A stretch of 64,000 bases of DNA. It comes from Romanomermis culicivorax. Lineage: Eukaryota; Nematoda; Enoplea; Mermithida; Mermithidae. Shown here piece by piece: positions 27,826-61,612 of this stretch. The position numbers and the translations under genes were made by a program. Location: assembly GCA_963922205.1 (NCBI GenBank), contig CAWUHX010000259.1:259501-323500 (forward strand), written 5' to 3'. A model generated the notes under the pieces. It was not told the origin of the DNA. It saw only the letters and a list, made by a program, of their open reading frames with translations, and searched no databases. Within the stretch, counting starts at the first letter, position 1. Every line of letters begins with the position of its first letter.

Positions 27826-28240
27826 AGTTGGCTAATGTGGCCAATGGGCTAATGTGGCCAATGGGCTAGTGTGGCCAATGGGCTAATGTGGCCAATGGGC
27901 TAACATGGCTAATGGGCTAATGTGGCCAATCGGCTAATGTGGCCAATGGGCTAATGTGGCCAATAGGCTAATGTGGGCAATGGGCTAATGAGGCCAATGG
28001 GCTAATGTGGCCAAAGGGCTAATGTGGCTAATCTAGCCAATGGGCTAATGTGGCCAATGGGCTAATGTGGCTAATGGGCTAATGTGGCCAATGGGCTAAT
28101 GTGGTCAATGGGCTAATGTGGCCAATGGGCTAATGTGGCCAATGGGCTAATGTGGCCAATGTGGCCAATGGGCTAATGTGGCTAATGCATTGTGTTATAA
28201 ATAATGGGTCTGGCCCATGGCCTAATGTGGCTAATGTGCT
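27826..28240. repeat. 17-bp minisatellite GGGCTAATGTGGCCAAT
   Basis: About 24 near-perfect units. It lies at the left terminus of MULE-like element 1 and reads as an expanded subterminal repeat. Variant units (CTAATGAGG, CAATCGG) are scattered. Confidence 0.92.
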
Positions 28241-31926: not shown

Positions 31927-32625
31927 TGTAAATTTTCGGTCGGAACAGTGTACCATTACTAAGGATATCGAATTTTCTATTTGAATGAATCAAGCACAAA
32001 AAGTAAGAATTTCAGTTTTAAATCCGAATGTGACTGAATGAACAAAGAATATTCAGAATTTATTTCCATTTATCATTCATTGACAGCCTATAAACTTTGC
32101 TGCAACGATGCTGATACACTGTTCGAAGAAAACTCGTTCGCGCTCGCTCGGGTCAAATACGAGTAGATGATGTTATATTCATTGACTTGGTGCCAAGCGC
32201 CGAAAATTTTTTGCATTTTCCGCCCTTAAATCGTCTGAAAATCAAGGAAATTTAATGTTTGAATAGCCAAAAATTTTGTGCCAATTAGCACAAACGCTCA
32301 AATTTTTTTGTGCAAAAAACCATGTTTTGGCACAAAAAAACACTGGAAGGAAGGAAGGAAGAAGAAAGGAAGGAATGAAGGAAGAAAAAAGGAAGGGAGG
32401 AAGTACGGCAAACCAGACGGGCAAAATCAATAAAAAAAATTCCGCAAAAATGTTAATCAGTGTTTTTTTTGTGCCAAAACATGGTTTTTGGCACAAAAAA
32501 ATTTGAAATGGCACAAAAATTTCGAGCAGTTGTGTCATTTGGCACAAAATTTTTAGCTGTTCAAACATTAAATTCCCTTGATTTTTAGACGATTTAGGGG
32601 CCGAAAATGAAACCAAAAATAGCAA
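31927..32625. repeat. Inverted repeat 32185-32615 around a purine tract
   Basis: 32185-32335 and 32465-32610 are inverted copies (GATTTAGGGGCC / CGCCCTTAAATCG, CCATGTTTTGGCAC / GTGCCAAAACATGG). The loop is a GGAAGGAAGGAAG tract. 31930-32110 resembles 25390-25560. The right arm is cut by the left LTR. Confidence 0.7.
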
Positions 32626-32874
32626 TGTGCTCGTGGAGCACGACTGGCGGAAGTTTTTAGCTAAAGGGCCTACTGTAGCCCGCGTTCATAAAGAAATAAA
32701 AATATAACAAAACGAAACATAGAAATGCATGAAAAAAATAAAAACGAACACAAAATGCATGTGTAGAAATCAAATAAACAAAAACATGAACGAGTAATAA
32801 ACAAATCATGAAGAAAACAAAATATCGGCATGATCGGAATCACGTGACTTTGGGGAATTGAGCGGCACGTGACA
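32626..32874 (-). repeat. 3' LTR
   Basis: On the minus strand it begins TGTCACGTGCC and ends CGAGCACA, giving the expected TG...CA ends. AT-rich core. It differs from the other LTR at three sites (98.8 % identity). Confidence 0.9.
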
Positions 32875-33471
32875 CGGTGGTCCTTCGAAAAAGGGTGTCC
32901 TCGTCCTTGTGGTGGTTAGTAGTGAGGGTTGTGCCGCGTGTCCGTGGTCGTAGGTCGTTCCAAGGTGCGACGGCGGGTGGTCGAATAGGTCCGTTGGGTT
33001 GTTGGCGGATGAAGCCTTCTTTGATCGTAATTCGTTCGACAGTATGGTGACCGGAAATTGTTGATGCGTGAAGTTGCAGACATTGAATATCCTGTGCGAA
33101 AGTCTAGAACACAGAAAAGAAAAATTTTCAGGGCAAGATGTAGGCTATCGCAGAGGATGCGCCCAGCGAGGTAGAGATTATCGGGTTATCGCAGAGGATG
33201 CACCCAGTGAGGTACAGATTGTCGGGTTATCGCAGAGGATGCACCCAGTGAAATGTAGGGTATCGGGTTATCGCAAGGGATGCACCCAGTGAAGTGTAGG
33301 CTATCGCGTGAGGATGCGCCTAAGATGTGACGCTTTGGTTGCTGAACATTCTCTTCTATCCACTAAAATCCAGCATGAATAAGAATGGATACTTCGTTAG
33401 GGGCACGGCGGTCCTTCGAAAAAGGACGTCCTCGTCCGTAAGCGGGGACAATGAAGAGAATGCATCTTGAA
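32875..33471 (-). repeat. Pre-3' LTR region with 41-bp tandem repeats
   Basis: GGTTATCGCAGAGGATGCACCCAGTGA-type units of about 41 bp recur from 33139 to 33315 (four and a half copies). A separate motif GGTCCTTCGAAAAAGG occurs at about 32878 and again at 33408. No obvious polypurine tract abuts the LTR. Confidence 0.75.
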
Positions 33472-34640
33472 TTAAGGGTCGGGGACCTCTGCATCAAGAT
33501 GTGGGTCAATCAAATTCGGTGTAAAGTCCCGGCTTATTGAAGGATACAATAAGGGTGCTGAATCCGTTGCCTGTGAAGTGGGAGGTGTATCCTCTGCTTC
33601 ACTTGGTGGTTCAGGGGACACGTAAAGTCGAAGCTGGTTGACATGTACAGTGTCTTCCTGATCCATCTCGAGACAAAGTGTGACATTGGGATATGCCACA
33701 CGTGTTACAAGATAGGGCCCATCGAAGATGGGCAGCAATTTAGGAGTGAGTCCACGTTTGCTGGAGGTGCGCAGTTTGAGCACCTGATCCCCTACTTTGT
33801 ACGAGACATCATGTGCCTTCCGGTGGTAAGACCGTGCATAGGCCTCCTGTGCTTTCTCAATCCGACTCTGGATTAAGGTTAACGCATTCGTGAAATGACG
33901 TTTGACCTCCATATCATATGAGGAAACATTAATGATATGGGCCGGTGGGTTGAATGAGAGCGCGGCATCAACAGGGAGCATGGGTGTGCGACCCTACATG
34001 AGTTCAAAGGGCGAGTACCCTGTTGACTCATTCATGCTGATATTGAAGGCAAACACAGCGTATGGTAGGTGTTCATCCCAATCAGTATGTCCGTGATGAA
34101 CATACATACGTAGCCGTGTAGCTAGCGTCTGATTAGCTCTTTCCACCTCGCCGTTGGTCATTGGATGATAGGCGGTAGAGTGGATTTTCTTCGTAGCGCA
34201 GATCGCAGTGATCTCAGTCATCAGTTTTGATGTGAAATCAGTGCCACGATCTGACTGAAGAATCTGCGGTGCCCCGTGCCGGCAGACAATTTGCGTTACA
34301 AACAGCCGGGCTATGGTGTGCGCAGTGATGTCCGGAGTAGCAAAAGCCTCGACCCATTTCGTAAAGTAGTCGATGATGACTACAATGAAATGGTTGCCAG
34401 CTTCGCTAGTGGTCATTGGTCCCATACAGTCGACACCTACCCCATGAAACGGTCCCGTGATGGTGATAGGTTTCAGGGTCGCAGTGGTTTTCTGTCGAGC
34501 GGGCTTATTCCGTTGGCAAAGATCACACCGCTGACAGAAGGATTTGACATCCCGACTGAGGAAAGGCCAGTGGTATCTGCGAGCAATGAGCCGCGCAGTA
34601 CGTTTAGCACCAAAGTGTCCAGCTAAGCCCGGATAATGGT
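33472..34640 (-). pseudogene. Integrase region of pol
   Basis: Contains the HHCC zinc region (HYPGLAGHFG, then SFCQRCDLCQ), the catalytic core with Asp in IIDYFTKW, Asp in QSDRGTDF and Glu in NGEVERANQTL, and a C-terminal GPY module (LPIFDGPYLVTRV). Integrases insert the cDNA copy. All three catalytic residues are present. The frame is broken near 34630 where it meets the RNase H-side frame, and an in-frame TAG lies at 33994-33996 between core and C-terminal domain. Ends at TAA 33472-33474. Confidence 0.88.
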
Positions 34641-35906
34641 AGTAACCATGGATCTGGGTATGACAATCTTATTGGACTCGCCTGTCCATTTCTGAAGAAC
34701 GTTATCCAACAGATGGTAGCCTCGCACATCATTCTGATCGCCCAGAGGCTTAAGAGAGCGAATGATGTCGGCTAAATCCGGATCCTCCAGCTGAGCAGCG
34801 AAAAGGTCGGGGTGCTGCGCACCAACCGATATCTCGGCATAAGACTCTGATCGTACCGGGCGCTCCGCGCCAACAGTGATCAGTGCTGAATTACTTGAAC
34901 GCGCCAGGTGCTGCACACCATCGGTCAAGGTTCTTGATCTCGCCAGGTGCTGCGCACCATCGGTGATCATCATAACATGCCCCTCAGGTCTGTAAAGGGG
35001 AGTATCATCAATACTCTGACCGGTGAGGGAGTTAGGATCTGGCAGGCGTGATAATGCATCAGCATTACCATTAGACTGACCTTTTCGCGGCCGAATTGTC
35101 AGTTTGAATTCGGCAAGCGTGAGTCCCCACCGAGCGATCCGAGCAGAGGGGTTAGGCTTCTCCAACACTGCTTTGACCGCGATATGGTCAGTCTGAACGA
35201 CCACCTCGTGCTGGAAGAGGTATGGTCGGAAGTGCTTGACGAAATGGACAACAGCGAGAGTTTCCAGTTCTGTAATGGAATAGTTTTTCTCGGCCGCTGT
35301 TAACCCTCGGCTGGCGTACGGGACAGGATGGTTGTATCCAAATTCGTCTAACTGGCTTAGAACCGCTCCTATCCCTGAAATACTTGCATCAGTTTGAAGG
35401 ATAAAGGATTTCGAAAAGTCCGGATGGCGCAGGATAGGAGGGTTGGTCAGCAGGCGGCGGAGTTCATCGAACGCCTCCTGCTGAGGTTTTGACCACTGGA
35501 AAGTAGTTTCCTTCCGTAAGAGCTTGGTGAGTGGCTCGCTGAGCCGGGCACAACCAGGGATGAAACGCCTGTAGTAAGACATGAGGCCTAGGAAGGACTT
35601 GATATCTTTGGCGTTTTGTGGAATGGGTAGGTTTTGGACGGCGGCCAGCTTGGCTTGGTCAGGTTCTAGGCCGCTCTGTGAGATGCGATAGCCTAGGTAC
35701 TCTACCTCTGAGTGCGAGAATTTGCACTTGCTCAGTCTGAGCTTCATTCCACCCCAGCGAAGACGGGCGAACACATCTGCCAGGTGCTCAAGCATTTGGG
35801 TGTGAGAGTTCCCGAACACCAAAATGTCGTCGTCAGAACCGTGCGCCATAGGATTCCAGTAAGGAGGAGGTCCATAAGGCGTTGAAATGTCCCTGGTGCG
35901 TTGCAC
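34623..35906 (-). pseudogene. RT connection and RNase H region of pol
   Basis: After the damaged RT active-site box (DDDILVF) come the RT thumb/connection LGYRISQSGLEPDQAKLAAV and FLGLMSYYRRFIPG, then RNase H with QTDASISGIGAVL, SITELETLAVV and VQTDH. RNase H degrades template RNA. A linker at about 35000-34800 holds four imperfect DGAQHLARS-like repeats. The frame differs from that of the upstream RT part; the break falls at the active-site box. Confidence 0.88.
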
Positions 35907-37648
35907 AGACCGAAAGGCAAATAATTGAATTCGTAAAGTCCAATGGGGGTATTAAATGCCGTCTTTTCTTTATCCGCCTCGGCAATCGGGATTGACCAAT
36001 AAGCGTTAGCCTGATCAAGGGTAGAGAAATACTTCATACCCTTGAGTGTGTCGAGGATGTCATCTATCTGTGGGAGAGGGTAGACATCCTTTTTCGTGAC
36101 CTCGTTAAGACCACGAAAGTCAACACACATACGGTGAGAACCGTTTTTCTTGCGCACCAGGACAGTATTAGTAGCCCACGGTGACGTGCTCGGCCGAATA
36201 ATACCTTTCTCCTGGAGCGCCTTGACCTCCTGCATGATGAGATCCTTTTCCTTAGGTGAGGACCGGTAAGGGAAACGGGGGACTGGGCGGGCATCGCCCA
36301 TGCAGATTTCGTGCTGGACGAGATCAGTGGAACCTGTGTCCTTTTCATCAAGAGCATAAAGATCAGTGTATGCAACCAGCAGGTCGAGTAAGGCTGCCCG
36401 GTCCCGAGGGGAGATGTCCGGTGAGATTACAGCATTGGTCTCTACCCACTGACGGTCGAGGACGGTGTCTGAGTCGACCGGTGATTCCCGTGAGGGCTCA
36501 CTATGCATTTGCACATGACCGATGGTCATGTGCGGGTAGAGAACCACGGAATGAGTATTCGGGTTAACTATTTGAAGTGGTATGTGGCCGTTGGTCACGC
36601 TACTCACGCTTCCAGCAAAATATACGTTTCTTTGAGATCCCGTGAGGTGCTTTGGGAAAAAGGCCACCTCAGGTACGTTCGTATAAATTGGTGGTATGGG
36701 TACAGTGAATCCTGTCAGGGAGCAAGGCTCCAAAGTTACCAAGTCCTTCAGGGGCAAGGCGCCGCGGGCAGAAGGTGGGCTGTGGATGAGACCGTCACAG
36801 GGGATTCTACTTTCCTTGAACTGGAGGAAGGATTTCTCCCAGTTCAAGCTGACACAATTGAACCGGCCAAGGAAGTTTGTTCCGAGGACCAGTTCAGCTG
36901 AACAGTTCTCCTGTATTTGGACCTGAATCCGTTCAGAGACATCAGCCACTGTAACCGTGATGTAGGCTGCTCCTAGCAGTGGGATCGGGGATCCGTTGGC
37001 TGCGATAGGGCGAGCCCTGGTTGGTGAAAGTGTCAAGTTGGGCAGCTGGGCTGCTAACTTGTGGTCCAGGAGTGAGAAAACAGCTCCTGTGTCGACCAGT
37101 GCCTTTGCTTCTACCCAGTTGTTGAGGAGAACTTTGATATGGGGTGTCCGAATATCATAAGGGTAAAAAGCAGAGACCACATGACCGGAATCAGGTGTGG
37201 CGGCACCACTATTGTGTTTAGTCTTACTGGACCGCTTTGGAATCGGCAGTTCCATACGACGTAGCAGACCTACTAGAGCGTATCCGACAGAGGGTTCTGG
37301 GTCATTTAGAAGGGTGGACTCATCCTGTACCGTGAGTACGTGGTTTGAGTGGTCCCTTGGGCTCTGAGTAGCTCCTAGTGATTCAATCTCGGTGTCCGAT
37401 AGCGGAGGCGCGTTTGGCACGGGTGATGCCGGAGCATCTGAATCACTTGGCTCACGGTATCGGCCCTTCTCTAGCGTGACTGGAGAGTTTCCAGGCGGAG
37501 GTCGAGGGCAACCTGACCCGTGCAAGGTCGACAAAGGACGACTTGCCCGTCTGGAAGAAGCCCGGGATCCCCTGGTTGACCCACGTGATGAGGCAACCGA
37601 GGAGGCCCGTGAGTGTGGCCGAGAGATGGACGAAGCCCTGGACCGCGA
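35744..37648 (-). pseudogene. Retropepsin 2 and reverse transcriptase N-terminal part
   Basis: Begins just after the TGA at 37649 with an Arg/Ser-rich stretch. The protease then shows ALVDTGAVFSLL (Asp-Thr-Gly at 37093-37085) and LVLGTNFLGRF. RT motifs follow: SPWATNTVLVRKKNGSHRMC, VDFRGLN, FSTLDQANAYWSIPI and LPFGLCNAPGTFQRLMD. These are standard Ty3/gypsy blocks, in the same frame as the env-like ORF upstream. The frame is lost just before the second catalytic Asp pair, near 35860. Confidence 0.9.
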
Positions 37649-40018
37649 TCATGATCCCGACCTGTGTGAGCTTCTTCTGAGAGCACGGGTGTTCTCCCAC
37701 CAGGGGTCGATCTGGTCAATCTCCGGCGTGGTCAGCAGGAGGGGTAATTCTACCGCGTCCAGCCGACAAACATTACGTTGGTAGTCGAACATAATGTTCT
37801 TGAACTGTACTAAGAAGTCCAGTCCGAGTATAAGGTCAACAGGTGCCCAGAAGGGAGACGTAGTCTTGCACACATGGAGATGTATATCGATCCGTGTGTT
37901 CGGCTGGCGGTTTCCGGGCAACATGATTTCATATGGTCCCGAAAGGATGATATGGATGGCTTTACCATTGATGCTCATCAATGGGTTAAAGTCGTGATGT
38001 TGCTGAAACGCCATGACGGCCTTCGGAGTTTCTTTAGCCAAGGCCTTATGAAGACATTGGCTAATGATAGTGCGGGGGCAACCCATGTCAAGGAAAGCAG
38101 GAGTTTCCTTGGTGTCCAGCAGCACGACGAAACACGGTGTGATTCGGTCAAGCTGGGAGGGCACATCATTTTGCACGTAGTGAAAACCGATCCAGCGTTG
38201 GACTTTGCGGTAAAGGCCCAATGATGAGAAATGGCTAACAAACCTGACCTGTTTGCTCCGCAGACGGTAGTTGAGATAATAAGATACACCAAGATAGGCA
38301 AGGTATCTGACACCGATCAGCACCGTCAGGGTAATTAGGATGTTAAAGATCAACTGGACCGGCCCGCTCAGGACAGCATGCAAGCCCTGGGCGAGGGTGT
38401 GTTGTTGACCCGTAATAACATGGTTTGCTGCCAAACCGACACCTTCCAGAGAGGCCTTGATGTCGGTTCCTACCCCTGCAATGGCCTGGTAAATGGCGTC
38501 TGGCTGCAGGGATAGACCAGCGGTAAAGTTTACCAGCCGGTTGACTACCGCTTCAATTTGCTCAGTCTTGTAAACGTACTGTTTAAAGAAGGCAAAGTTT
38601 GAAGGGGTCATCGCCAACTGGTCATGGAAGAGCGCCGGTGCCTCAAAGTGAGTGATGTTGAAGCGCTGCTTCCAGAAAAGTTCCAGTGGGATGTGGCTCA
38701 CATGGACCGCGCCAGACTCAGTAAACCAGCCCGAGCGATTTCGGAAAATCCCTGTAAAGTGGTGATGACACGGCACAATTGGGCTAGATTTAATGAGATC
38801 TGGACCACCGGGGGTGGCGAAATAGATGGTGCCGCCGACCTGTACAGGTAAGTACTTGTAGCAAACGTTTCGCACCCGGTACGAGTGGTAGACGTAGGTG
38901 GCGTTGAGCTTCTGACACGGCCATATTGTCAGTGCATCGCCTGTGAATTCCGCCATCAGGTCATTCCTCTGGAGGAATGCCCGGGCACCCAAGGTAGGGT
39001 CGAAGCGAAGCAACTGCCAAGTCAGATCAAGATAGCGTTGAGCGTGAGAGCAGAGCTCAAGCCACGTGAACCGGAAACCGTTAATTTCCGACTCCTTGAT
39101 CTGCTGAGCCAGGTAGTTCAATTTGGGATTGACAGGATCGGGACGAGTGTCCGTTGCCATCTTGAACAAGTTTTGGGTCAAATTGTATCTCCCGTGGATG
39201 CGTAGCAGAAGACCCTGATCCGTCCTGACTGTGGTGGAACGTAGTTCTGGGCACAGTTGGAAGACGCGGGAGTTTCCCGGGATCTTGAGGGCAACCTGTA
39301 GATCATCGATGATGATGTGGTTCCCTGACATGGACGCAGTGTAATTTCCCTTGGGGTGATAATGACACTGCAACATGAAGTTTTGTGCAGGCCAGACAAT
39401 GACCCCGTCTAGGGTAGTGCGCTGACCTGCAGTGGGACTGCATCCACTTACATCACCTAAGGTGCTCAGGGCCGTAGTGCCATCTCACGAAGCGACTTGT
39501 CCCTCCTCGATGAAGAGGTTAGTCACTGTCTTGCAGACGTCGCTGCAGCACCATTCGTACATCACTTCCAATGTTTGGTTTGTGCTATAAAAGCCAGGGC
39601 GAATGCCGACAAGTTTTTGTGAACCAAACATCTTAGTGTGATGTGCTAGCGTGCAGGCCGCAGGCGCTAAGTGCTGAGTGGTAATGACGTCTGCAGTGAT
39701 GCCCCTAGAGCCGAAGAAACCAGTGTTGGTGCAGACTTTGCGGGTGCGCAATGTGCATTTCCACGCTGTGGTTGTAATCCGGTCTGAACTAGGGACATAC
39801 ACCGTAAGATTCATGCGCCGCGGGCTCCATGAAGATTGCGGTGGTTTACACTCTACACGCTGGGGTAACTCAAGTGGATGTCCGCTTCTTGAGAGACCAC
39901 AAAATTGATACTGAGCCGCCGGTGCTGACAAACTCACCCCTAGAAACAGTGATGTTACCAAGGTCAATTTTATTATCAAAAACAACTGTACAAACGTGAT
40001 TTGTAAGTGTTCACACAT
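37649..40018 (-). pseudogene. Env-like glycoprotein fused to retropepsin-like domain 1
   Basis: Starts ATG 40018-40016, about 30 nt after the stop of the preceding frame. Seen: an N-terminal hydrophobic signal segment (LFLIIKLTLVTSLFLG), a Cys-rich ectodomain with several N-x-S/T sites and a CC-x-D-x-C cluster, a membrane anchor (about 38356-38288, IFNILITLTVLIGVRYLAYL) and a short basic tail. After the anchor comes a retropepsin-like unit with PAFLDMGCPRTII (38101-38063) and LILGLDFLVQF (near 37825); the Asp-Thr-Gly position reads Asp-Met-Gly. An in-frame TGA at 39485-39487 splits the ectodomain and another TGA (37649-37651) ends it. The ectodomain resembles chuvirus-type glycoproteins found in invertebrate retroelements; that is recalled, not searched. 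Envelope proteins mediate membrane fusion. Confidence 0.75.
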
Positions 40019-40046
40019 TTTCACAAATCTGGCCTGAGGAGCAGTG

Positions 40047-40886
40047 TCAGATTTCTTCTTCGTCGCTGTCAGACGAGATGGGTTCCTGGCCCGGGAAATC
40101 GAGGACCAATCCACCACACGGGTGGATTTCCCGGAGGATACCGATTTTTGGCGACCATGGGGCGACTGCTGTCGGGAACGGAGATTCCTCAACAATGCTG
40201 ACATCTTCGTTAACCGGACGTAAGGTCTCGTTGACGGCCATATGTTCGACGACGGGCGACTTGGTCGCAGCGGTCGGAGATGTCTCTTGGGCTGGCGCCG
40301 GGGATTTAATTTGGGCTGTTGCCGACAATGTATTTTGGGCTGCTGCCGACAGTGGACTTTGGGCTGGTGCCGACGTTGTGGTTTGGGCTGTTGCCGGCGG
40401 TGTAGGATCATTTGCGGGTTCCTTGGCCGGGGGCGAGGAAGCAGTAATGTCCATTTTTGTTGGCGATGTCGCGGCAACATGTGGTGCTGCTGTCGGTGAT
40501 GTAGCGGCGACAGCAGGCAGGAGGATCCGACTGGCCTGTTTGACTGCTTGGCGGACGGCATCGACCGAAGGTGAGGATGGTTCCCCATCCAATAAGAACT
40601 TCTCGACGGGCGAGATTGTGATAGTCCCATTGGCAATGAACTCGAGTGCCCGTCGGGCGACGTCGGGTCGTAAGAGTCGCATTGAAACAGGTGCCGCATG
40701 CACCACGTCGGCAGCCATGAGCGCTTCGATGTGCGATGGCTCGTTGAGCAGAGTCCACGGCAAATGCGGGTATTTCTTGGCCAGGTCAACCGACCAGATG
40801 GCCAACATCCCGTCTTGGACGGGCGATGGCACTGTGAACAAGAAATCGATAGAGTTGTGGACTGAGATAGATTTCTGTTTCCTACT
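40047..40886 (-). CDS. Retroelement ORF segment in the -1 frame
   Basis: A 280-codon open stretch that begins after TAG 40889-40887 and has no early ATG, so it would need frameshifting from the gag frame (or reflects an indel). The first 110 residues look like a folded domain ([32 protein letters not shown]). Then come Ala/Pro/Thr/Gln repeats ([23 protein letters not shown]) and an acidic end DSDEEEI. The gag frame is also open here. Function unknown; its position suggests a Gag C-terminal domain. Confidence 0.5.
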
Positions 40887-41770
40887 CTAGGATCACCTGA
40901 AGAAGAAGGTAGTATACCTGACAAATTCATGGGCTCGACCTGGTCGAGGACTTCCATAGCCGAATCCGTGGGGATCGAAGGGGGTGGTCCTGGAGGGACG
41001 ATGCGGGCCGGTGGCGCTGAAGACATCGTATTTGCGGCTGGAGCTGGCTGGGCAGTCGTGGTTTTGGGAATGCAATACGATGCGAGGATGTTAGCGTGGC
41101 CAACAAACTGCGGTGTCGTCGAGGGGTCCAGGGTGACCGGCATTGCATACTTTGGTGGTGGTGGTGGCAGCGGTATGTCCGACACATTTATCGGTACGGG
41201 TACCTGGGCTGCTTGGACCACTGAAAATCCAATACTGATTACGCAGACAGGATAACACTGTTGTGAAGGATCTGTCAGGTGTTCAGCAAGTGCCTCATCA
41301 TCCAGGTCACGAGGATCTGGATGAGGAGGGCCATCGGTAGCCCCAATGGCGTTGTTGCGATGTATGGGCTGCCGATATTGGTTCCCCGTCCCGTTAGGAG
41401 GGTGATAACTATTTCTTTGATGATACACATTTGTCCCCTGGGAAGAATAACCAGTATTTTGGTAGTCATTCTCACCCGAGTTTGCCGGATTGCGCTGCGG
41501 ACAGGCAGTTGATCGGTGCACTCGCACTTGACGACAATGAGGGCATGGCCTGTCACATCGGTCCGTAGGGTGGGCACGTGTACGGCAAAAATAACAGCGA
41601 CCTCCGTTAGCGGTGTTGTTACTGGGAGCAGCACTGGTGGGACGCTGGGCCCGGCAGTCGGCGTCGCTATGTGTACACAGTCCCTGGAAGGAGCACGTTT
41701 GAAGGTGTGCTGCCGACGTGCGTCGCCCGGTGGACTGATTTGGTGTCGACGGCTGTGGAGGCGGCGTCTG
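40887..41770 (-). pseudogene. Gag nucleocapsid and proline-rich segment
   Basis: Same frame as the capsid part but separated from it by TAA 41773-41771. Shows two zinc knuckles: CYFCRTRAHPTDRC (C-x2-C-x4-H-x4-C) and CPHCRQVRVHRSTAC (C-x2-C-x5-H-x4-C), then a Pro-rich stretch (IPLPPPPPKYAMP). Zinc knuckles package genomic RNA. Overlaps no other recognisable gene. Confidence 0.8.
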
Positions 41771-42637
41771 TTAGATTGGCGCTGGTGCACGTTGCTGGGC
41801 CGTAAGCTTCGCTACGTGGGCCGTTAGCCTGGCCATTTCCTGTTTCAAGCGGCGAACCTCATCAGCGGAGGATGAGGACGTTTGAGCGTTGCTCTGACGA
41901 CCGTTTGCGCTTCTGTTAGGCATATCGGGATTATATCCGGCATGTTTAGGTTCTGAAGAGAAAACAGCGTTAGATGGAGCAGTGTACCAGATCTCGTCCC
42001 GAAAGATTTGGGATTCTGCGTAACAGGCTGCCTTGAGTGTCTCTTCAAGAGTCGTGAACTCCCTAAACTTGATACTATCTCGGAGGACCGGTTTCAATCC
42101 TCGCAGAAAGATAGGTTTGATGATAGAATCTCGGACGTCTGTCGCGAGATCTGGATACGCTACCCTGGATAGTCTCTTGAGGTGCTCAAGGTAGACTATC
42201 CCGGACTCTGTCGGCTTCTGTAGTCGATCTTGGATCAGCTGCTGATGCAGATCAGAGTCGCGCCCTACCGGAAAATCTCTCCGTAGAAAAGCCGTAAACT
42301 CTTCGTAGCGGGTAGGTATTGGAGTGCTGCTGCTAAAGTCCCGGTAGGAGGCAAGAGCAGGACCCGTGAGGCATGACTCCAGAAAGGCGATTTTATACGC
42401 ATGATCCGTTTCGCTTACACCCTGGAGTGTAAAGAAACGAGTAAGATGCCACATAAAATTGGTGATAGACTCACCAAAAGCACCGGAGAAGGTGGGAGGG
42501 GCCATAAAGCTGGACATGGGAGGGTGCCTCCGACCATTCATGGCCTCTAACTTTTGGTTGAGGGGTCCAAGAGCATTCTCAAATGCTGCCTGGACCTTGT
42601 TCTCGATCTGTGAAGGGAGATCAGCTTCCGACTTCAT
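41771..42637 (-). CDS. Gag capsid region
   Basis: 288 codons from ATG 42637. Matches the Retrotrans_gag type: SFMAPPTFSGAFGESITNFM, then HLTRFFTLQGV, LTGPALASYRDF, RRDFPVGRDSDLHQQLIQDR and YLEHLKRLSR. It ends with a short coiled coil (DEVRRLKQEMARLTAHVAKL). Forms the particle shell. The terminal TAA (41773-41771) precedes the in-frame zinc knuckles, so it probably is a nonsense change or a readthrough site. Confidence 0.85.
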   Translation of the reverse strand: MKSEADLPSQIENKVQAAFENALGPLNQKLEAMNGRRHPPMSSFMAPPTFSGAFGESITNFMWHLTRFFTLQGVSETDHAYKIAFLESCLTGPALASYRDFSSSTPIPTRYEEFTAFLRRDFPVGRDSDLHQQLIQDRLQKPTESGIVYLEHLKRLSRVAYPDLATDVRDSIIKPIFLRGLKPVLRDSIKFREFTTLEETLKAACYAESQIFRDEIWYTAPSNAVFSSEPKHAGYNPDMPNRSANGRQSNAQTSSSSADEVRRLKQEMARLTAHVAKLTAQQRAPAPI

Positions 42638-44059
42638 GTCCGAGGGTTCGCTTTCCCGTAAGGTGGTTTAAGTCAAATTGAATAGAGAGCATCTCACTGG
42701 TCTGTACAGGCTGGGTACTGAGATGGCAGGAACGACGGGGTGTCTCTATTGTGTAAAGTGAAAGTGAGTACTACTTTTGAATTCGCGGCGAAAGAGCGCG
42801 TGAATTCGAAAAATGCATGTGCGACGGCGTTTGTTACGTAAACTTGATTTAGCTTAAGACTAGCGACCACGAAAAGGGAGCTAGAATGGAATAGGATTGT
42901 AAGATGCAAGATCAGAGTACACCAGGGTGACGCAGAAGGGAATTTATCTGGTCGCCCGTGATGGACAGAGGCATGGCTTGAGAGATGGGGGAATCGATCC
43001 CGACCAAAAATGTAGAGTTGGGGCCTGGACCCGGCAATTAGAATAGCTGAGAAGGACAGAAGATCAGATATAAGAGGAGAGAAAAGGCGGTTTTTCCTGC
43101 CGAGAAATAAGATGACGGATGAACCCGCTCAGGAGGGATTTTTCCTGGAGGTTCGACCGTTTGTACTAGTTTACAAACCTTGGGGCGAGGCGGACTCGTA
43201 GCCGGCAAGATCCTACTCACCAGGAGTAGCGCATAAAGTGGCATAAAGTGAAAAGGATGTGGACAACTGAAAGTGAACTTAAAAGGGTGCAATAAATAGG
43301 GACAAAACTAATTTACAAACCCAGTTACGCAAAGGGGTAGCGCAGTTACGCAACAGGCCTCACTCGCCAGGAGCGATTGCGATCTCTGTACAGTGTGATG
43401 GACTATACAGAGGTTCCGTGTTGGACGACATTCGCAAGTAACGTACAGCCATGTCCGAAACGGGAGCCCGCATTCCGAACAGAACGGACACTCTCCAGGA
43501 GTATTATACACAGCTGGTGGCCGGGTTGCCGATCACTGAGATGAAATGAGGCTCGCAGGTCACACAGTAGAAGAGAGAGAGAGCACGGGTACCAAGGGTG
43601 CTATTCTGACACACTCAGTCAGTTAAGATGAATTACTCTCGATGTTTTGAGGGTGCACCCGAAAACATCTAAGGGATCACGGGTACAAGGTGTCCCTGGG
43701 TGAATATGAGTGTAAAATAACTGAGGCGGACCCAGTTATGTATTGAGGCGTACTCAATACCTTCGCTGAGGCGGACTCAACGGTGCCTATTACATTACAT
43801 GACTAACAGGGGTGGACCGCGAAGGCGGACTCTGGGTCAGTGGCGACTCTAGCGCGGGCATTGTTAAGCTAGTTAACGAAGGCGTTCAAGTGAATAAAAT
43901 ATGACAGGGGGTCCTATACACTGTAGGCCCAACCGGAGGCTGTGCCGCGGTCCCTCAGGAACCACTACAGCGGGGACACTAAAGAAGATCTATGTATGAC
44001 AGCTGGATGAGATGAAAGAGAAGGAGTGAATTTAGATAAGAAATTTACAAGAAGATTGC

Positions 44060-45110
44060 TGAACCCTTGCAGACGTCAGACACAGGCAGTACCGACTGCA
44101 AATGCCTACCGTCTACATGAATCAAACAACCAACCCAGCTGAGGCCGAGTGTAACTCGTTCAAACCTGCAGTTAAAGCCTGAAAGCAGCCACGTGCTGAT
44201 CAACAGTGCCGCTACCCGGGCGGACAACCTGATCAGTACGCAGGCTAGAGAGCATCTCAGGTGGTGTATGTATGTGGACTGATGTTTCCCAGGCATCAGC
44301 CCCAGACACACACCAACCCTTTGACAAGAGCAGTAGGTGATAGGATCATGCGCCAGCGACCACCTATGTCTCAAGTGGAATACTCATAGGACCGACAGTA
44401 ACCTGGTGCTGACGTCAAAAGGTAGGGGGTATGAACCAACACATGACCTTGGTGCTGACTGCAGGTGCCTGGGATAAGAGTATTCAAATATCATGTCGCA
44501 GTTGCAGACGCCAGGGGTGAGTGCCTAAGGCCAGCAAAACCCCTGCAGTAGCACGTAATGTTACCGTTGCAGACGTCAGAAATAGGATCATGTAACCTCA
44601 ATTCCTGCTGCGAGAACATGATACATTGTCATTGCTGACGTCAGCAATAGGGCCCTGAAGCCAACTATCGGTATACAGCAACACGTGATGGTGCTGTTGC
44701 TGACGTCAAAAGGTGGAACCGAGGGTCTGATACCTTAAGTCAATGACATGAGATGCAGTTGTTGCAGACGTCAGATGTGGCACCTGTAAGACCTGCACAT
44801 CTTTGAATAGTGACACGGTGCATCACCATTGCTGACGTCACAGATGGGGTGCAGAGAACCAGCCGAATCTGTTACAACAACATTAGCTTCAGCTGTTGCA
44901 GACGTCAGAAGTCAGTACTGCAGGAGTATTAACTTAAACAATAACACGTAATGTCACCGTTGCTGACGTCAGGAGTAGAACCCGGAGGGCTACCCACCCC
45001 TAAAGCAACAGCAAGTGAAGCGGCTGTTGCAGACGTCAGTGGTTGCATCCGTGAGGCTGAACCACACAACAACAACAACCCGTAACATTGTTGTTGCTGA
45101 CGTCAAAGAG
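44060..45110. repeat. 65-bp tandem array carrying TGACGTCA / AGACGTCA cores
   Basis: The GACGTC core recurs at 44572, 44637, 44702, 44767, 44834, 44901, 44965, 45032 and 45099 (spacing 64-67 bp), with outlying copies at 44072 and 44411. Each is preceded by TTGC. TTGCTGACGTCA and TTGCAGACGTCA alternate strictly from 44767 on. TGACGTCA is the CRE, the known site of CREB/ATF bZIP factors. Between the cores the sequence is divergent. Confidence 0.9.
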
Positions 45111-45247
45111 CATGACCCATAAAGTCTATGGTCTAGATGCAACAACCCGAGAATAGAAGCGAACAGACCTTACAGTAAGTAGAAATGAGAAAGAGAGAGA
45201 AACTTACGTAAGGGTGTCATACTGTAGCGGTGGCATCAGAAAAACAG

Positions 45248-45251
<4 letters not shown>

Positions 45252-45313
<62 letters not shown>
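45252..45313. repeat. Poly(T) tract of 62 nt
   Basis: Uninterrupted T run (poly-A on the element's coding strand) in the leader. It creates an artificial poly-Lys frame. Length may be affected by sequencing. Confidence 0.9.
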
Positions 45314-45829
45314 CGCTGCTCAGATGACCGAGAAGAGAAATGGAGGGCAAAATAACCAAAAACGGGGAATACGAGATTTGGACATACGCGTGTTAATTGT
45401 GTAAACAGTAGGTGTAAAAATTTTGGGGCCGGAAAAGTGAGCAATTCTGACAGTTTCCGCCGACATACAAAAATACTGTACACACTTAACAGATCGCAGC
45501 CACGTATGACGTCCAGAATCATACGTGGAGGGTGTACCGTATCATGGGGTCATGGACCACCGACAGTCAGGAGAGGCCGTCAACCCCTACAGCTGTGATA
45601 CCAGTACCCGCGTATGGGTATACTGTAGTTACAGTACGGGAATGGGCACAGGCGTACTGTAACGGCACCCACCCTGAGGGTTACAGTATACCACCCAAAA
45701 TGGCAGAGGGGGGGGGGGGGAAATAAAGGGGAAAGAGACAGATAAGGGAATTTACAACACAGATTAAGTATGTAGAATATACAGGACTAATCAGAGGAGA
45801 AATACAGAATACTCGATATATAACTCAAC

Positions 45830-46290
45830 TCTGGGACAAATAACTCGACTCTGAGGACAATTAACTCGACTCAGGGGGAATTTATTACTCATAGGGGCAA
45901 TATACACGCATGAGATAATTATTTACACATATAGATCACATTTAGATCACTCGTAAGGGCAAATCCCGTCTTACAGTAATTAAACTCGATGTTAAGGGAT
46001 AAATTCCCGACCTACAGTAATAACTCTCGGTGGTACGGGAAAAATATCCGACTTACAGTAATAACACGCGACTTGAGGGGAGGTTTCCGACCTACAGTAG
46101 CGGTAATCCGAAATAAGGGACATTCCCGACCCATTAGGCAGTAAACCCGAATTTGGGGGGTCTCCGACTTATTGGATGGCTAGTACCCGATTTTAAGGGG
46201 GCTTGTCCGACTTAAAATGGGAATTGACCCGACCTGGGGGTAGTTCCGACCCAAGGGTGAAGTTTTTTGCACTTAAGGGCGAGTGCCAGA
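45830..46290. repeat. Degenerate array with CGACYTACAGTAAT motif
   Basis: Units of roughly 35-50 bp with CCGAC, CTTACAGTAAT and AGGGG elements (e.g. CGACCTACAGTAATAACTC, CGACTTACAGTAATAACAC). The upstream block 45600-45690 also has TACTGTA palindromes. In the retroelement leader. Confidence 0.65.
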
Positions 46291-47089
46291 CTTAAGGTCG
46301 ATTTTCCAGCCTTGCCATGTCACATATTTGGCCATCCATGTCACATTTTATGGCCATGTCACGTGTATGACATGTGGATTTGGGAGAGCTGGGGAGGTTT
46401 GGGTATCTCATCAGGTAATACCGTGTTTTAGTCATCACATTGATGGTGAACCATATCAGATTGATCCTATTACAGTGAGTAATAGGCTGTGACTCCTGAT
46501 GGATACTGGCATTTTTCCCCAGGCTTCCCTGAATGGCGTTGGGGCCTAACCTGGCGAATGGTGGCTATAGAGAGGTCTATAGTTGGTTCTCTGGTGTTGT
46601 CCTTGGGGTCTTGCTGTAGGGTAATGGACAACGCTGCCAGGCTAGGTGTGACAATCCCCGAGTCCTACTCAGTGAGAGTGGGGACAGGGTCACCCATAAA
46701 ATGACCTAATGTGTGGGACCCGATTATGAACCAGACAGCCCCTTTTAGCCCGAACCTGAAAGGTAGAGGCCCTACTTATCTGTGGAAACTTGGGAAACCG
46801 ACTTAGGAAGGATTTCCCAACAAATACCCCACAAATAACAATAATCCCCTGAGAAGACTCACCTAGTCCTGTTTCTCAAGCGATTCGACGAAACGGGCAG
46901 CGAGTCCCTGGATACTTTCGGTCTTCTGGCACTGGGGCGGGGATGCGATCCACACAAGTCCTAGCGGCGAGCGGCAGTGAGCGGGAGGCGAGTCTCCAAC
47001 GTTTTCTTCACGAACCAGGGGTGGTCGGACACCTGGCACTGATGGGCAGCGGGTACTGTAGACGGTAAGCGGCGGACACGGTAACCGGG

Positions 47090-47230
47090 TATAAATTTAT
47101 GCAAATTAATTTGCTATAAGGCGGCCGACGCAGTAAGAGATGCAAGTGTATGCAAATTTATTGAAGGTGGCGGACGCACAGGTGTATAATAAAATATGCA
47201 AATTTAAAACGAAGGCGGCGGACGCGAAGT
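47090..47230. repeat. Three-unit array with ATGCAAAT octamers
   Basis: TATGCAAATT recurs near 47098, 47149 and 47194, each followed by a GGCGG(A/C)CGC block. ATGCAAAT is the POU/octamer core. About 330 bp inside the 5' LTR. Confidence 0.7.
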
Positions 47231-47541
47231 TACAACCGGACGGAAGCTTGGTGAACCCAAGAATGAGCGAAAAACTAAAGAAACATGTCCTTTTAAGGAC
47301 ATGTTTGGCTACAGCTGCAGCTTGGGCAGAGTTTCTCGGCGCTCAAGCTAACTTCTGCAGCTAGACGCGATGCAGAAGATGCCTATGAGCACATAGACAT
47401 TTTTTCGTTCACATGCATTTAGCACTGAGGCCGACTGCAGTGCCTATGCTAAGCATATGAACGTCTTTAGCTAAAACTTCTTAGCTAGTCGTTTTTGCGT
47501 AACAAAAACGACGCTAATTTTTGATGATAAGAGGTGCATGA

Positions 47542-47559
47542 ATGCACCAAAAATAGCCA
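47542..47559 (-). other. Candidate primer-binding site
   Basis: The minus-strand sequence directly after the 5' LTR is TGGCTATTTTTGGTGCAT, starting with the TGG expected from a tRNA 3' CCA end. The matching tRNA was not identified. Confidence 0.45.
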
Positions 47560-47808
47560 TGTGCTCGTGGAGCACGACTGGCGGAAGTTTTTAGCTAAAG
47601 GGCCTACTGTAGCCCGCGTTCATAAAGAAATAAAAATATAACAAAACGAAACATAGAAATGCATGAAAAATATAAAAACGAAGACAAAATGCATGTGTAG
47701 AAATCAAATAAACAAAAACATGAACGAGTAATAAACAAATCATGAAGAAAACAAAATATCGGCATGATCGGAATCACGTGACGTTGGGGAATTGAGCGGC
47801 ACGTGACA
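47560..47808 (-). repeat. 5' LTR
   Basis: 249 bp, TG...CA ends on the minus strand, 3 substitutions from the 3' LTR. Contains CACGTG twice near its 5' end (E-box-like, in GTCACGTG and ATCACGTGAC). Confidence 0.9.
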
Positions 47809-47990: not shown

Positions 47991-48714
47991 TTAACTCCGA
48001 GAATTAGTGATAACGACGACAATCAAAGAACAGGTTTAACCAGAAACAATGTTTGATAGCGTAAATAGTATTCTACTGTAACCTCAGATAAGACCAGACC
48101 ACCGTTTTTTCCTAATGCGGTCTTTTGAGGAAAAAAATTTCGTAATGAGGAAAAAATTTTTGGGTATGGTTCTCATTGAGGAAAAAATTTTGGGGAATTC
48201 AAAACCGAAAAGATGCGTTTTAGTGGACTTGAAAGGGTCAAAATCTCAAAATTTTCCGGCGCTTAGCGCCGCACGCAAATCCATCAGCGAAAAAATTAAA
48301 ATTCGTTACAACGTTGCTACAGTAATAATGAAACGAAAAATATTTCGGATAATTACATATATCTCAACGAAGAAGCAACCAATTTCAGCGCACGATAGTG
48401 AATTTTGCATAATTATCTATTGTCTTCAAAATAGCGTTGCGATATTTGAATATCGCTTGCGTTTTTTCATTTCGGTAATCGGTATCATGATTTACTGTAG
48501 CCAAAAATTTCAAATTAGTCTGTGATAGTTGACCTTTCAGGGCGGATTTTCTCATTTAGCGTGAATTATTTTACGTCCTTCTGAACTCTACTACACGAAA
48601 CTTAGATTTTCTGGTCGATAAAAGAACGCTGATTCTAAATCTAACTTTGTTTTTTTGCTATATGTAGTATTTTTAGAGCTATCTGTTCCGAAATACGAAC
48701 TATCCAACTATCAC
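47991..48714. repeat. E-type repeat with mini-hairpin; otherwise no gene
   Basis: 48100-48275 shares GAGGAAAAAA, GGTTCTCATTGAGG and AAAGGGTCAAAATCTC with the spacer of foldback 2 and ends in CCGGCGCTTAGCGCCG (48256-48271). A frame at 48115-48525 runs through it and is not supported as a gene. Confidence 0.6.
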
Positions 48715-49054
48715 CTGGATCGACGTGGCCGGTCATGGGTATAATCTTAACTTATGGAAAGCATCATACACTGTTCCAATCTTTAAAAAAGGGGACCGTG
48801 GCAAAGTTGAAAACTACAGGCCCATATCACTTTCTTGTGTACCATGCAAAATCATGGAAGGAATAATTAATAAGGATATTGTAGGTCATTTTGACAGATA
48901 TGCCTTATTCAGTAGTAGGCAGTTTGGATTCAGAAAGAATAAATCATGTGTCTTACAACTTCTTGAATGTACAACTATGTAAGTGGGTTAAGAAGTTGCA
49001 TGATCAAGTTCCTGTTGATGTTGTATACATCGATTTTAAGAAAGCATTTGATAC

Positions 49055-60605: not shown

Positions 60606-61612
60606 GATTGTGCCACGCTAGACCCACTGTCCCACTAGGCCCACCAGTTCAGTTAACCCAATGTCTCACTAGGCCCACCGAAAGTGTGTCATTAATCCCA
60701 CCGGAATTCTCAGTAGACCCACTGCGTCGATCAGAGGTGTATCACTAGACCCACTATTAAATTTGTTGCGTTATTCCCACTGTCTCACATGGCCCACTAG
60801 TAAAATTCGAGTAATGCACAAAATTTTTCAATCTTGGCGAAAAAATGACATAACGACAGGGTGTGGCGAAGTGATCTGCTCGCTCCAAAAACCGAATTCC
60901 ACTGGGAATCTCATTGACAACTTGACGATATGACACGAGTGGCCTTGTTCCATCGGTTCTGCATTTATTACGAGCTTCGCGATTGAGTTTTAAAGCCTCC
61001 AATTCGTTTTTTGGAATCGACGTGCAGTGGGGATTGTGACCAAGCTTGGGATCGGTCAAAATTTGGCCATCTCGTATTGTGACCCGAGATTTGCGGTTAT
61101 TGTCAAGCGCATTGATACAATTACGACACTCATAGTATTCACTTAATATACCATCACTTAATCGCTTTTGCGATTTCTTTTGAAAAAGATGAAAAGATTC
61201 TCCATTAATATCAGCTTCACAGACTAACATTTTGGAGTTCATAAATCGTGTTAAAACAAAATTCGATTCCTGACAAAGACCTGATTTGCATATTTGCTCG
61301 CTTGTTTCATAATGCTTAACTCGTTGATTGTTATATAATGCTGAAACGGTCATGTTCCTTTGTATTTATATAATATTTCACCTGATTGAAAAATATTGCG
61401 CATTACTCGAATTTTATACTAGTGGGCCATGTGAGACAGTGGGAATAATGCAACAAATTTAATAGTGGGTCTAGTGAGACACCTCTGATCGGCGCAGTGG
61501 GTCTACTGAGAATTCCGGTGGGATTAATGACACCCTTTCGGTGGGCCTAATGAGACATTGGGTTTACTGAGCCGGTGGGCCTGGTGAGACAGTGGGTCTA
61601 GGGAGACGTTGC
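60606..61612 (-). mobile_element. MULE-like element K1 with long inverted repeats and one gene
   Basis: Perfect 9-bp duplication CCCGTCGCA at 60597-60605 and 61613-61621. Inverted repeats of about 227 bp (60606-60832 and 61385-61612), each built of seven or eight short units with cores such as TCACTAGGCCCACC and CAGTAGACCCAC. Long inverted repeats plus a 9-bp duplication are the Mutator-like signature. The only ORF encodes a zinc-finger-like protein, not a full transposase, so the element is probably mobilised in trans. Confidence 0.88.
60757..61353 (-). CDS. FLYWCH/WRKY-GCM1-like zinc finger protein carried by MULE K1
   Basis: 198 codons from ATG 61353. Residues about 30-105 show KMLVCEADINGESFHLFQKK, then YYECRNC and a later LGHNPHC, i.e. 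hydrophobic/aromatic strands followed by C-x2-C and H-x2-[HC], the FLYWCH layout. FLYWCH and related WRKY-GCM1 fingers bind DNA and often accompany MULE transposases, which suggests it may recognise the element's repeated termini. The C-terminal residues are encoded within the inverted repeat. A TATATAAATA motif lies about 15 bp before the ATG. No DDE catalytic domain is seen. It could instead be a captured host gene. Confidence 0.65.
   Translation of the reverse strand: MTVSALYNNQRVKHYETSEQICKSGLCQESNFVLTRFMNSKMLVCEADINGESFHLFQKKSQKRLSDGILSEYYECRNCINALDNNRKSRVTIRDGQILTDPKLGHNPHCTSIPKNELEALKLNREARNKCRTDGTRPLVSYRQVVNEIPSGIRFLERADHFATPCRYVIFSPRLKNFVHYSNFTSGPCETVGITQQI

Follow-up and report, generated by a model that had tools for sequence, protein, structure and literature searches.

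A candidate Monjiviricetes-type envelope gene shares one open frame with the gag and pol that flank it in a Ty3/gypsy-like lineage of Romanomermis culicivorax

Introduction

The stretch of DNA analyzed here, 64,000 nucleotides of the mermithid nematode Romanomermis culicivorax (assembly GCA_963922205.1, contig CAWUHX010000259.1, positions 259,501 to 323,500, forward strand; hereafter the window), contains a Ty3/gypsy-like long terminal repeat (LTR) element in which an envelope (env)-like gene precedes pol. This placement raises the question of whether the order belongs to a lineage or to one rearranged copy, and of how such an env would be made. In Errantivirus, the order is gag-pol-env. The same order, with env following pol, is given for retroviruses in a source that introduces LTR retrotransposons as lacking Env (PMC10309623), and env lies downstream of the polyprotein in Roo, Tas, and Cer-7 (PMC7642597). 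LTR elements have captured envelope genes several times, and the examples described in the excerpts of these sources used here place env after pol.

The original prediction, made from the letters of the window, held that gag, env, and pol as far as the N-terminus of reverse transcriptase (RT) share one frame interrupted only by single stops, and that this layout could define a new lineage. In the present analysis, the order and the single open frame of gag, env, protease (PR), RT, RNase H (RH), and integrase (IN) are found both among intact copies and across divergent families. The sequences point to a Ty3/gypsy-like lineage with a Monjiviricetes-type env between gag and pol, probably made as a gag-env-pol polyprotein. 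Two features go beyond the original prediction, namely the apparent Monjiviricetes_fusion type of the glycoprotein and an overlapping open reading frame (ORF) in the -1 frame, termed X.

Results and Discussion

The element occupies positions 32612-47808 of the window on the minus strand, as do all of its features given below. Four successive stop-to-stop frames (42667-41771, 41770-39485, 39484-37649, and 37648-35744) share one register, which confirms that, as predicted, gag continues into the beginning of RT with only single stops, at 41771, 39485, and 37649, between the frames. Profile matches in the element are to Ty3_capsid, gag-asp_proteas, RVT_1, RNase H, integrase, and PF24664 (Pfam). 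This copy is decayed and dead: it has the three in-frame stops and breaks in RT and before the integrase, and its 3' LTR is cut after 263 bp. All of the indels from gag through env that distinguish it from ten other copies are multiples of three, which is beyond chance.

Further copies were sought in the whole genome (359 Mb, 595 contigs). The search with the env piece, in which 72 matches were scored among 3876 first-look candidates, sets a lower bound of at least 72 genomic copies of the env-like block. The env piece lies within an open frame of 3084-3116 codons in 48 of the 72 copies, which were not chosen for openness; the remaining 24, the window copy included, have 24 different shorter open lengths, all unlike, as private decay would give. 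Ten copies were fetched in two pieces each and constitute a biased sample, because they were chosen for their open frames. All ten contain an ATG-started frame of 3038-3062 codons with the order gag-env-PR-PR-RT-RH-IN.

The LTRs of these copies define the ends of the element. The 5' LTR of the window copy (46318-47808; 1491 bp, TGTCAC...GTGACA) is delimited by its junction with the primer site and by LTR alignments, and the primer binding site comprises the first 18 nt after the LTR (46300-46317); the junction was recognized with one mismatch in the window. The primer site TGGCGAGGCTGG directly follows the LTR, with the same junction in nine of nine copies. In nine copies, the LTR pairs align over 1430-1480 positions with 96.4-100% identity (the 5' LTR of the tenth lies outside the fetched piece), and in one copy the LTRs are identical over 1465 bp. 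TG..CA termini are present in all nine copies for which both LTRs were retrieved, and five of the nine show a 4-bp target duplication. The identical LTR pair and the target duplications indicate that the family was recently active. The 3' LTR of the window copy (32612-32874) consists of only the first 263 bp of the full-length LTRs in other copies, and an LTR of 263 bp was rejected on the basis of those alignments; a 3-bp target duplication, hinted at by the truncated LTR, was likewise rejected in view of the 4-bp duplications elsewhere. Troyka has CG..CG termini and a 3-bp target duplication (PMC12440569, in the excerpt used), and identity with Troyka was rejected because of the TG..CA termini and 4-bp duplications found here. 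A DNA search with the LTR yields further copies (40 of 2315 candidates scored). With regard to copies lacking env at this position, seven LTR pairs among the 40 scored matches, not picked for open frames, are spaced 14.0-14.9 kb, as in the copies that hold env.

The env-like gene begins with a signal-peptide-like hydrophobic stretch (39920-40018) and continues into an ectodomain that closes with a membrane anchor (38279-39919; anchor 38279-38386), as judged by hydropathy; in the window copy it is interrupted by the stop at 39485-39487. The 611-codon env piece matches PF24664, Monjiviricetes_fusion, with an E value of 7.7e-13 and 47.7 bits against a cut-off of 27 (38696-39133 in the window), and a weak second Pfam match is to the Borna G protein. 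Monjiviricetes_fusion comprises fusion glycoproteins of RNA viruses with negative-strand genomes. The PF24664 matches span about 145-210 of the 653 profile positions, and the metagenome protein P0003, described below, scores 60.2 bits and is 41.6% identical to the window env over 382 aa. Seven N-glycosylation motifs are present in the C-terminal env piece of each of the ten copies, and six are present in the window copy. Among the ten copies, the ratio of nonsynonymous to synonymous polymorphism (pN/pS) is 0.36 in the N-terminal and 0.07 in the C-terminal part of env, and against the window copy it is 0.22-0.49 in env. The C-terminal value falls among those of the pol parts (0.02-0.18), and env is constrained much like pol. 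No match was found for env or for the protease-RT piece in the viral contigs searched; env has nothing below E 0.015 among the Protein Data Bank sequences, and a PHROGs search gives no match.

Downstream of the anchor, the predicted doubling of the protease around an Arg/Ser-rich linker is present. The first protease-like domain (37715-38164), on the predicted cytoplasmic side, is recognized by weak matches to the second protease and by a pN/pS of about 0.04-0.05 for the tail and this domain together; its motif is DMG in the window copy and DTG in all ten other copies, so that the motif read from the window is not that of the family. It is followed in the same frame by the linker (37133-37714; pN/pS 0.18), with a stop at 37649-37651 in this copy, and by the second, main aspartic protease (36863-37132; PF13975, E 3.2e-7; pN/pS 0.03). 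RT (35682-36157; pN/pS 0.02) has PF00078 matches on either side of its break, RNase H (35106-35495) matches PF17919 (E 3.7e-35) and PF17917, and the integrase with its C-terminal part (33472-34656; pN/pS 0.05), also broken here, matches PF17921 and PF00665. The order PR-RT-RNaseH-IN, found in the window copy and in P0003, is that of Ty3/gypsy (Metaviridae), and the Ty3-type capsid, the TG..CA LTRs, and the 4-bp target duplication, within the 4-6 bp typical of the group, are further Ty3/gypsy features. The Pfam and capsid matches of the window are of Ty3 type.

The gag capsid part (41771-42637) contains the Ty3_capsid match (PF19259, approximately 42023-42409; E 2.4e-7, just over the curated cut-off), and two zinc knuckles at 41501-41596 are recognized as sequence motifs; pN/pS among the ten copies is 0.16 in the capsid and 0.34 around the knuckles. 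The interval of approximately 840 nt from the knuckles to env is open in the shared frame, as had been proposed, but the amino acids under selection appear to be those of another protein: in the ten copies, pN/pS over this interval is 1.50 in the shared frame versus 0.24 in the -1 frame, which indicates that the selected residues are those of ORF X (40047-40808 in the window, 253 aa from ATG to stop). The ATG (40808) and stop (40047) of X are kept in 14 of 14 copies, with lengths of 229-253 aa, and the shared frame is open across X in all 14. X ends 29 nt before env, and a Pfam search of X gives no match. When X is recoded synonymously with the codon usage of the element, the shared frame stays open in a fraction of 0-0.0015 of the runs, and when the codons of X itself are shuffled, it stays open in 0.0005-0.045. 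The window family provides a clear example of an overlapping gene, with selection acting on the encoded protein in one frame and, it seems, only on openness in the other. A 24-bp tandem repeat lies inside X at 40287-40396, where copies differ from the window copy by 48 or 72 nt with both frames kept.

The layout extends to relatives in metagenomes and in the same genome. With the pol part of one copy as a query, 2386 of 7984 candidate proteins match with an E value no higher than 1e-10, and the best three matches, P0001, P0002, and P0003, are metagenome proteins with 49-53% identity. P0003 (1750 aa) combines PF24664, a membrane anchor, protease, RT, RNase H, and integrase in a single protein, and P0002 starts at an anchor-like stretch ahead of the protease. 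Against this genome, all 27 scored P0003 matches, which are the best of 13150 candidates and thus biased toward full matches, run colinearly from residue 1-11 to residue 1525-1632 with 47-53% identity, and 10 of the 27 are stop-free. The position of env between gag and pol is therefore no peculiarity of the window copy, being found in the ten copies fetched for their open frames and, from env through pol, in the 27 P0003 matches. In three further families of the genome (C52, C175, and C18), gag, 2-4 zinc knuckles, and env form one open frame, with gag identities of 48%, 32%, and 40%, respectively, and env identities of 45-48%. Env continues in these families into a single protease; the first protease is absent from all three, and no other-frame ORF of at least 90 aa is present at their gag-env junctions. 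X and the doubled protease consequently look specific to the window family. As side observations, the second protease with the Arg/Ser-rich linker (37715-37132) seems special to that family, and the protease motif in C175 (L039) is DCG, where others have DTG, with the frame open.

An RT-RNaseH tree of 125 rows groups the window family with six other families from the same genome and with the proteins P0001, P0002, P0003, P0005, P0011, and P0012 in one clade of 13 rows with a Shimodaira-Hasegawa-like approximate likelihood ratio test (SH-aLRT) value of 100, in agreement with the suggestion of a new lineage; the member list was drawn up after the first tree, in which the 118 other rows are mostly unnamed and do not include named gypsy reference clades. 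The RT-RNaseH identity among the seven families of the genome is 63-75%. On these comparisons, the lineage spans several divergent families within this genome, along with metagenome relatives.

The manner in which env and pol are made is suggested by the frame itself. Ribosomes that start at the gag ATG of an unspliced RNA would produce gag-env-pol, as no stop separates the parts in the open copies. Because the env signal is without an ATG at its start in 8 of the 10 copies, a polyprotein is favored, and a polyprotein with an internal signal is, we infer, the simplest reading. The full-length RNA would be translated through gag, env, and pol; the hydrophobic start of env would act as an internal signal, so that gag remains in the cytosol and the ectodomain is translocated into the lumen, and the protease and the rest of pol would be returned to the cytosol by the membrane anchor. 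Signal peptidase would then free env on its N-terminal side, and the protease of the element would free pol on the C-terminal side. In flaviviruses and alphaviruses, a polyprotein with capsid and glycoproteins is processed, which offers a likeness for the proposed cleavage.

The strongest competing explanation is that env, or env-pol, comes from a spliced or internally started message and that the frame is continuous only because gag lacks its own stop. In retroviruses, env is translated from spliced RNA (PMC10309623, in the part used), and a donor-like site, CTG|GTGAGT, lies approximately 610 nt before the gag ATG and is the top-scoring donor in eight of eight copies scanned, with the splice-site scores throughout being provisional. 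The nearest in-frame ATG upstream of the env signal is 62 codons away in the copies checked, and this ATG, along with the ATG at the signal in 2 of the 10 copies, keeps internal initiation in play. However, no acceptor scoring above 6.5 is present at the env start in the window, where better acceptors are found in gag or before X; most copies have no ATG at the signal; and unspliced RNA would still give gag-env-pol in the open copies and in the three other families. A separate env message is regarded as a minority possibility.

In addition to the potential for internal initiation, several observations weigh against the polyprotein reading or the evidence for it. Two structure predictions of the glycoprotein, which bear on a class III fusion fold, have predicted local distance difference test (pLDDT) values of only 33 and 34, and its fold is for that reason assigned from sequence. 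The env piece has no match among 7997 candidates from 5.8 billion proteins, and a query with residues 1-430 of P0003 for further env-pol fusion proteins returns only P0003 itself. P0001 joins gag to pol through two hydrophobic stretches (residues 500-590) without an ectodomain, which may perhaps represent a loss of env that leaves gag and pol together on the same membrane face. In two of the three families C52, C175, and C18, a second hydrophobic stretch precedes env, which does not fit a simple topology. The recoding test of X counts as one observation of moderate strength, because the copies share ancestry, and a test for new stops in the shared frame (0 seen against 4.8 expected; P 0.008) carries the bias of having selected open copies and does not count as support.

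The polyprotein reading can be widened to a whole lineage of enveloped retroelements with a flavivirus-like strategy: a membrane-threaded gag-env-pol with capsid and polymerase in the cytosol, a glycoprotein derived from negative-strand viruses as a luminal loop, and a frame kept open despite an overlapping regulatory gene. This wider proposal is about as likely as not.

A second alternative concerns X, which could be reached by -1 ribosomal frameshifting from gag, giving a gag-X product that ends at 40047 while unshifted ribosomes continue into env and pol. The position of X in the -1 frame of gag, ending just ahead of env, would suit such a shift, which would also supply gag without pol, a product for which the element otherwise has no route. 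However, canonical frameshifting was rejected, since no in-frame canonical slippery heptamer is found near X in the five copies scanned and the sole in-frame heptamer lies far upstream, in two of the five. The -1 signature of variable sites begins approximately at the X ATG, in copy C69 the -1 frame contains an additional stop ahead of that ATG, and acceptor-like sites precede the ATG in eight of eight copies scanned (40896 and 40831 in the window). Frameshifting is therefore considered improbable. Given the absence of a nearby slippery site, the onset of the signature at the ATG, the upstream acceptor-like sites, and the strong donor, a spliced message is the likely route, and X would be an accessory protein comparable to CERV of Cer1, encoded by a spliced RNA in which the X start is the first AUG.

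The last explanation, in which an RNA-virus glycoprotein gene or endogenous viral element (EVE) was inserted by chance into one gypsy copy, would suit the window copy viewed alone, and arthropod genomes commonly contain EVEs with a glycoprotein of this type (PMC10084718, in the excerpt used), but it is refuted, with next to no probability left, by the at least 72 copies, the divergent families with the same order, the metagenome relative, and the purifying selection on env.

Errantivirus and the retroviruses share with the present element the LTRs, gag, PR-RT-RH-IN, and an envelope gene, whereas their env follows pol and is expressed from its own RNA; in the present element, env comes before the protease and RT in the frame of gag. 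Anakin, a mosquito BEL/Pao element with a captured chuvirus glycoprotein, is also an LTR element that multiplied with a glycoprotein of this kind, but it differs from the Ty3/gypsy element here, as the Pfam and capsid matches indicate, and neither the position of its env nor a gag-env-pol frame is described for it in the excerpted text (PMC7642597). Glycoprotein EVEs of Jingchuvirales adjoin Gypsy fragments in insects and thus place a related glycoprotein type near Gypsy elements, but they are mostly fragments with few complete elements, and in the excerpt used none is described with env between gag and pol (PMC10084718). The sORF2 of the MDG1 group encodes a membrane-fusion-like protein upstream of pol; in contrast to the large glycoprotein in the gag-pol frame here, it is a short ORF of its own that precedes gag and resembles fusion-associated small transmembrane (FAST) proteins, as far as the excerpted text goes (PMC11952523). 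In the LTR element Cer1 of C. elegans, gag and pol of the genomic RNA are not separated by a stop, and the RNA-export factor CERV is made from a spliced RNA with exon 4 in another frame (PMC10309623, in part); the splicing of X is only predicted, and the likeness of X to CERV is one of layout. No published gag-env-pol element was found in the open-access literature searched, with Repbase and subscription papers outside its scope.

The captured fusion glycoprotein described here sits within the gag-pol frame across several divergent families. If the polyprotein reading is true, it would break the rule that a retroviral env needs its own message, couple the levels of gag, env, and pol to one another, and place the polymerase behind a membrane anchor. 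Many copies exist, some with identical LTRs, which makes the question of expression testable in the host.

The remaining features of the element are a 5' leader of approximately 3.7 kb (42638-46299), in which no ORF of at least 90 aa is common to the three copies examined, and a 41-bp tandem repeat of 3.6 copies (33146-33292) in the stretch that separates pol from the 3' LTR. An Rfam scan of the window gives no match, and a tRNA search of the window finds none. Just past the element, a fragment of another reverse transcriptase (sub-threshold RVT_1) lies on the plus strand at 48677-48979. A 202-aa ORF at 60760-61365 on the minus strand has a sub-threshold match to the RYYR-CCHC domain, and an array in which 8- and 9-bp units alternate, GGCTAATGT/GGCCAATG, occupies positions 28009-28204.

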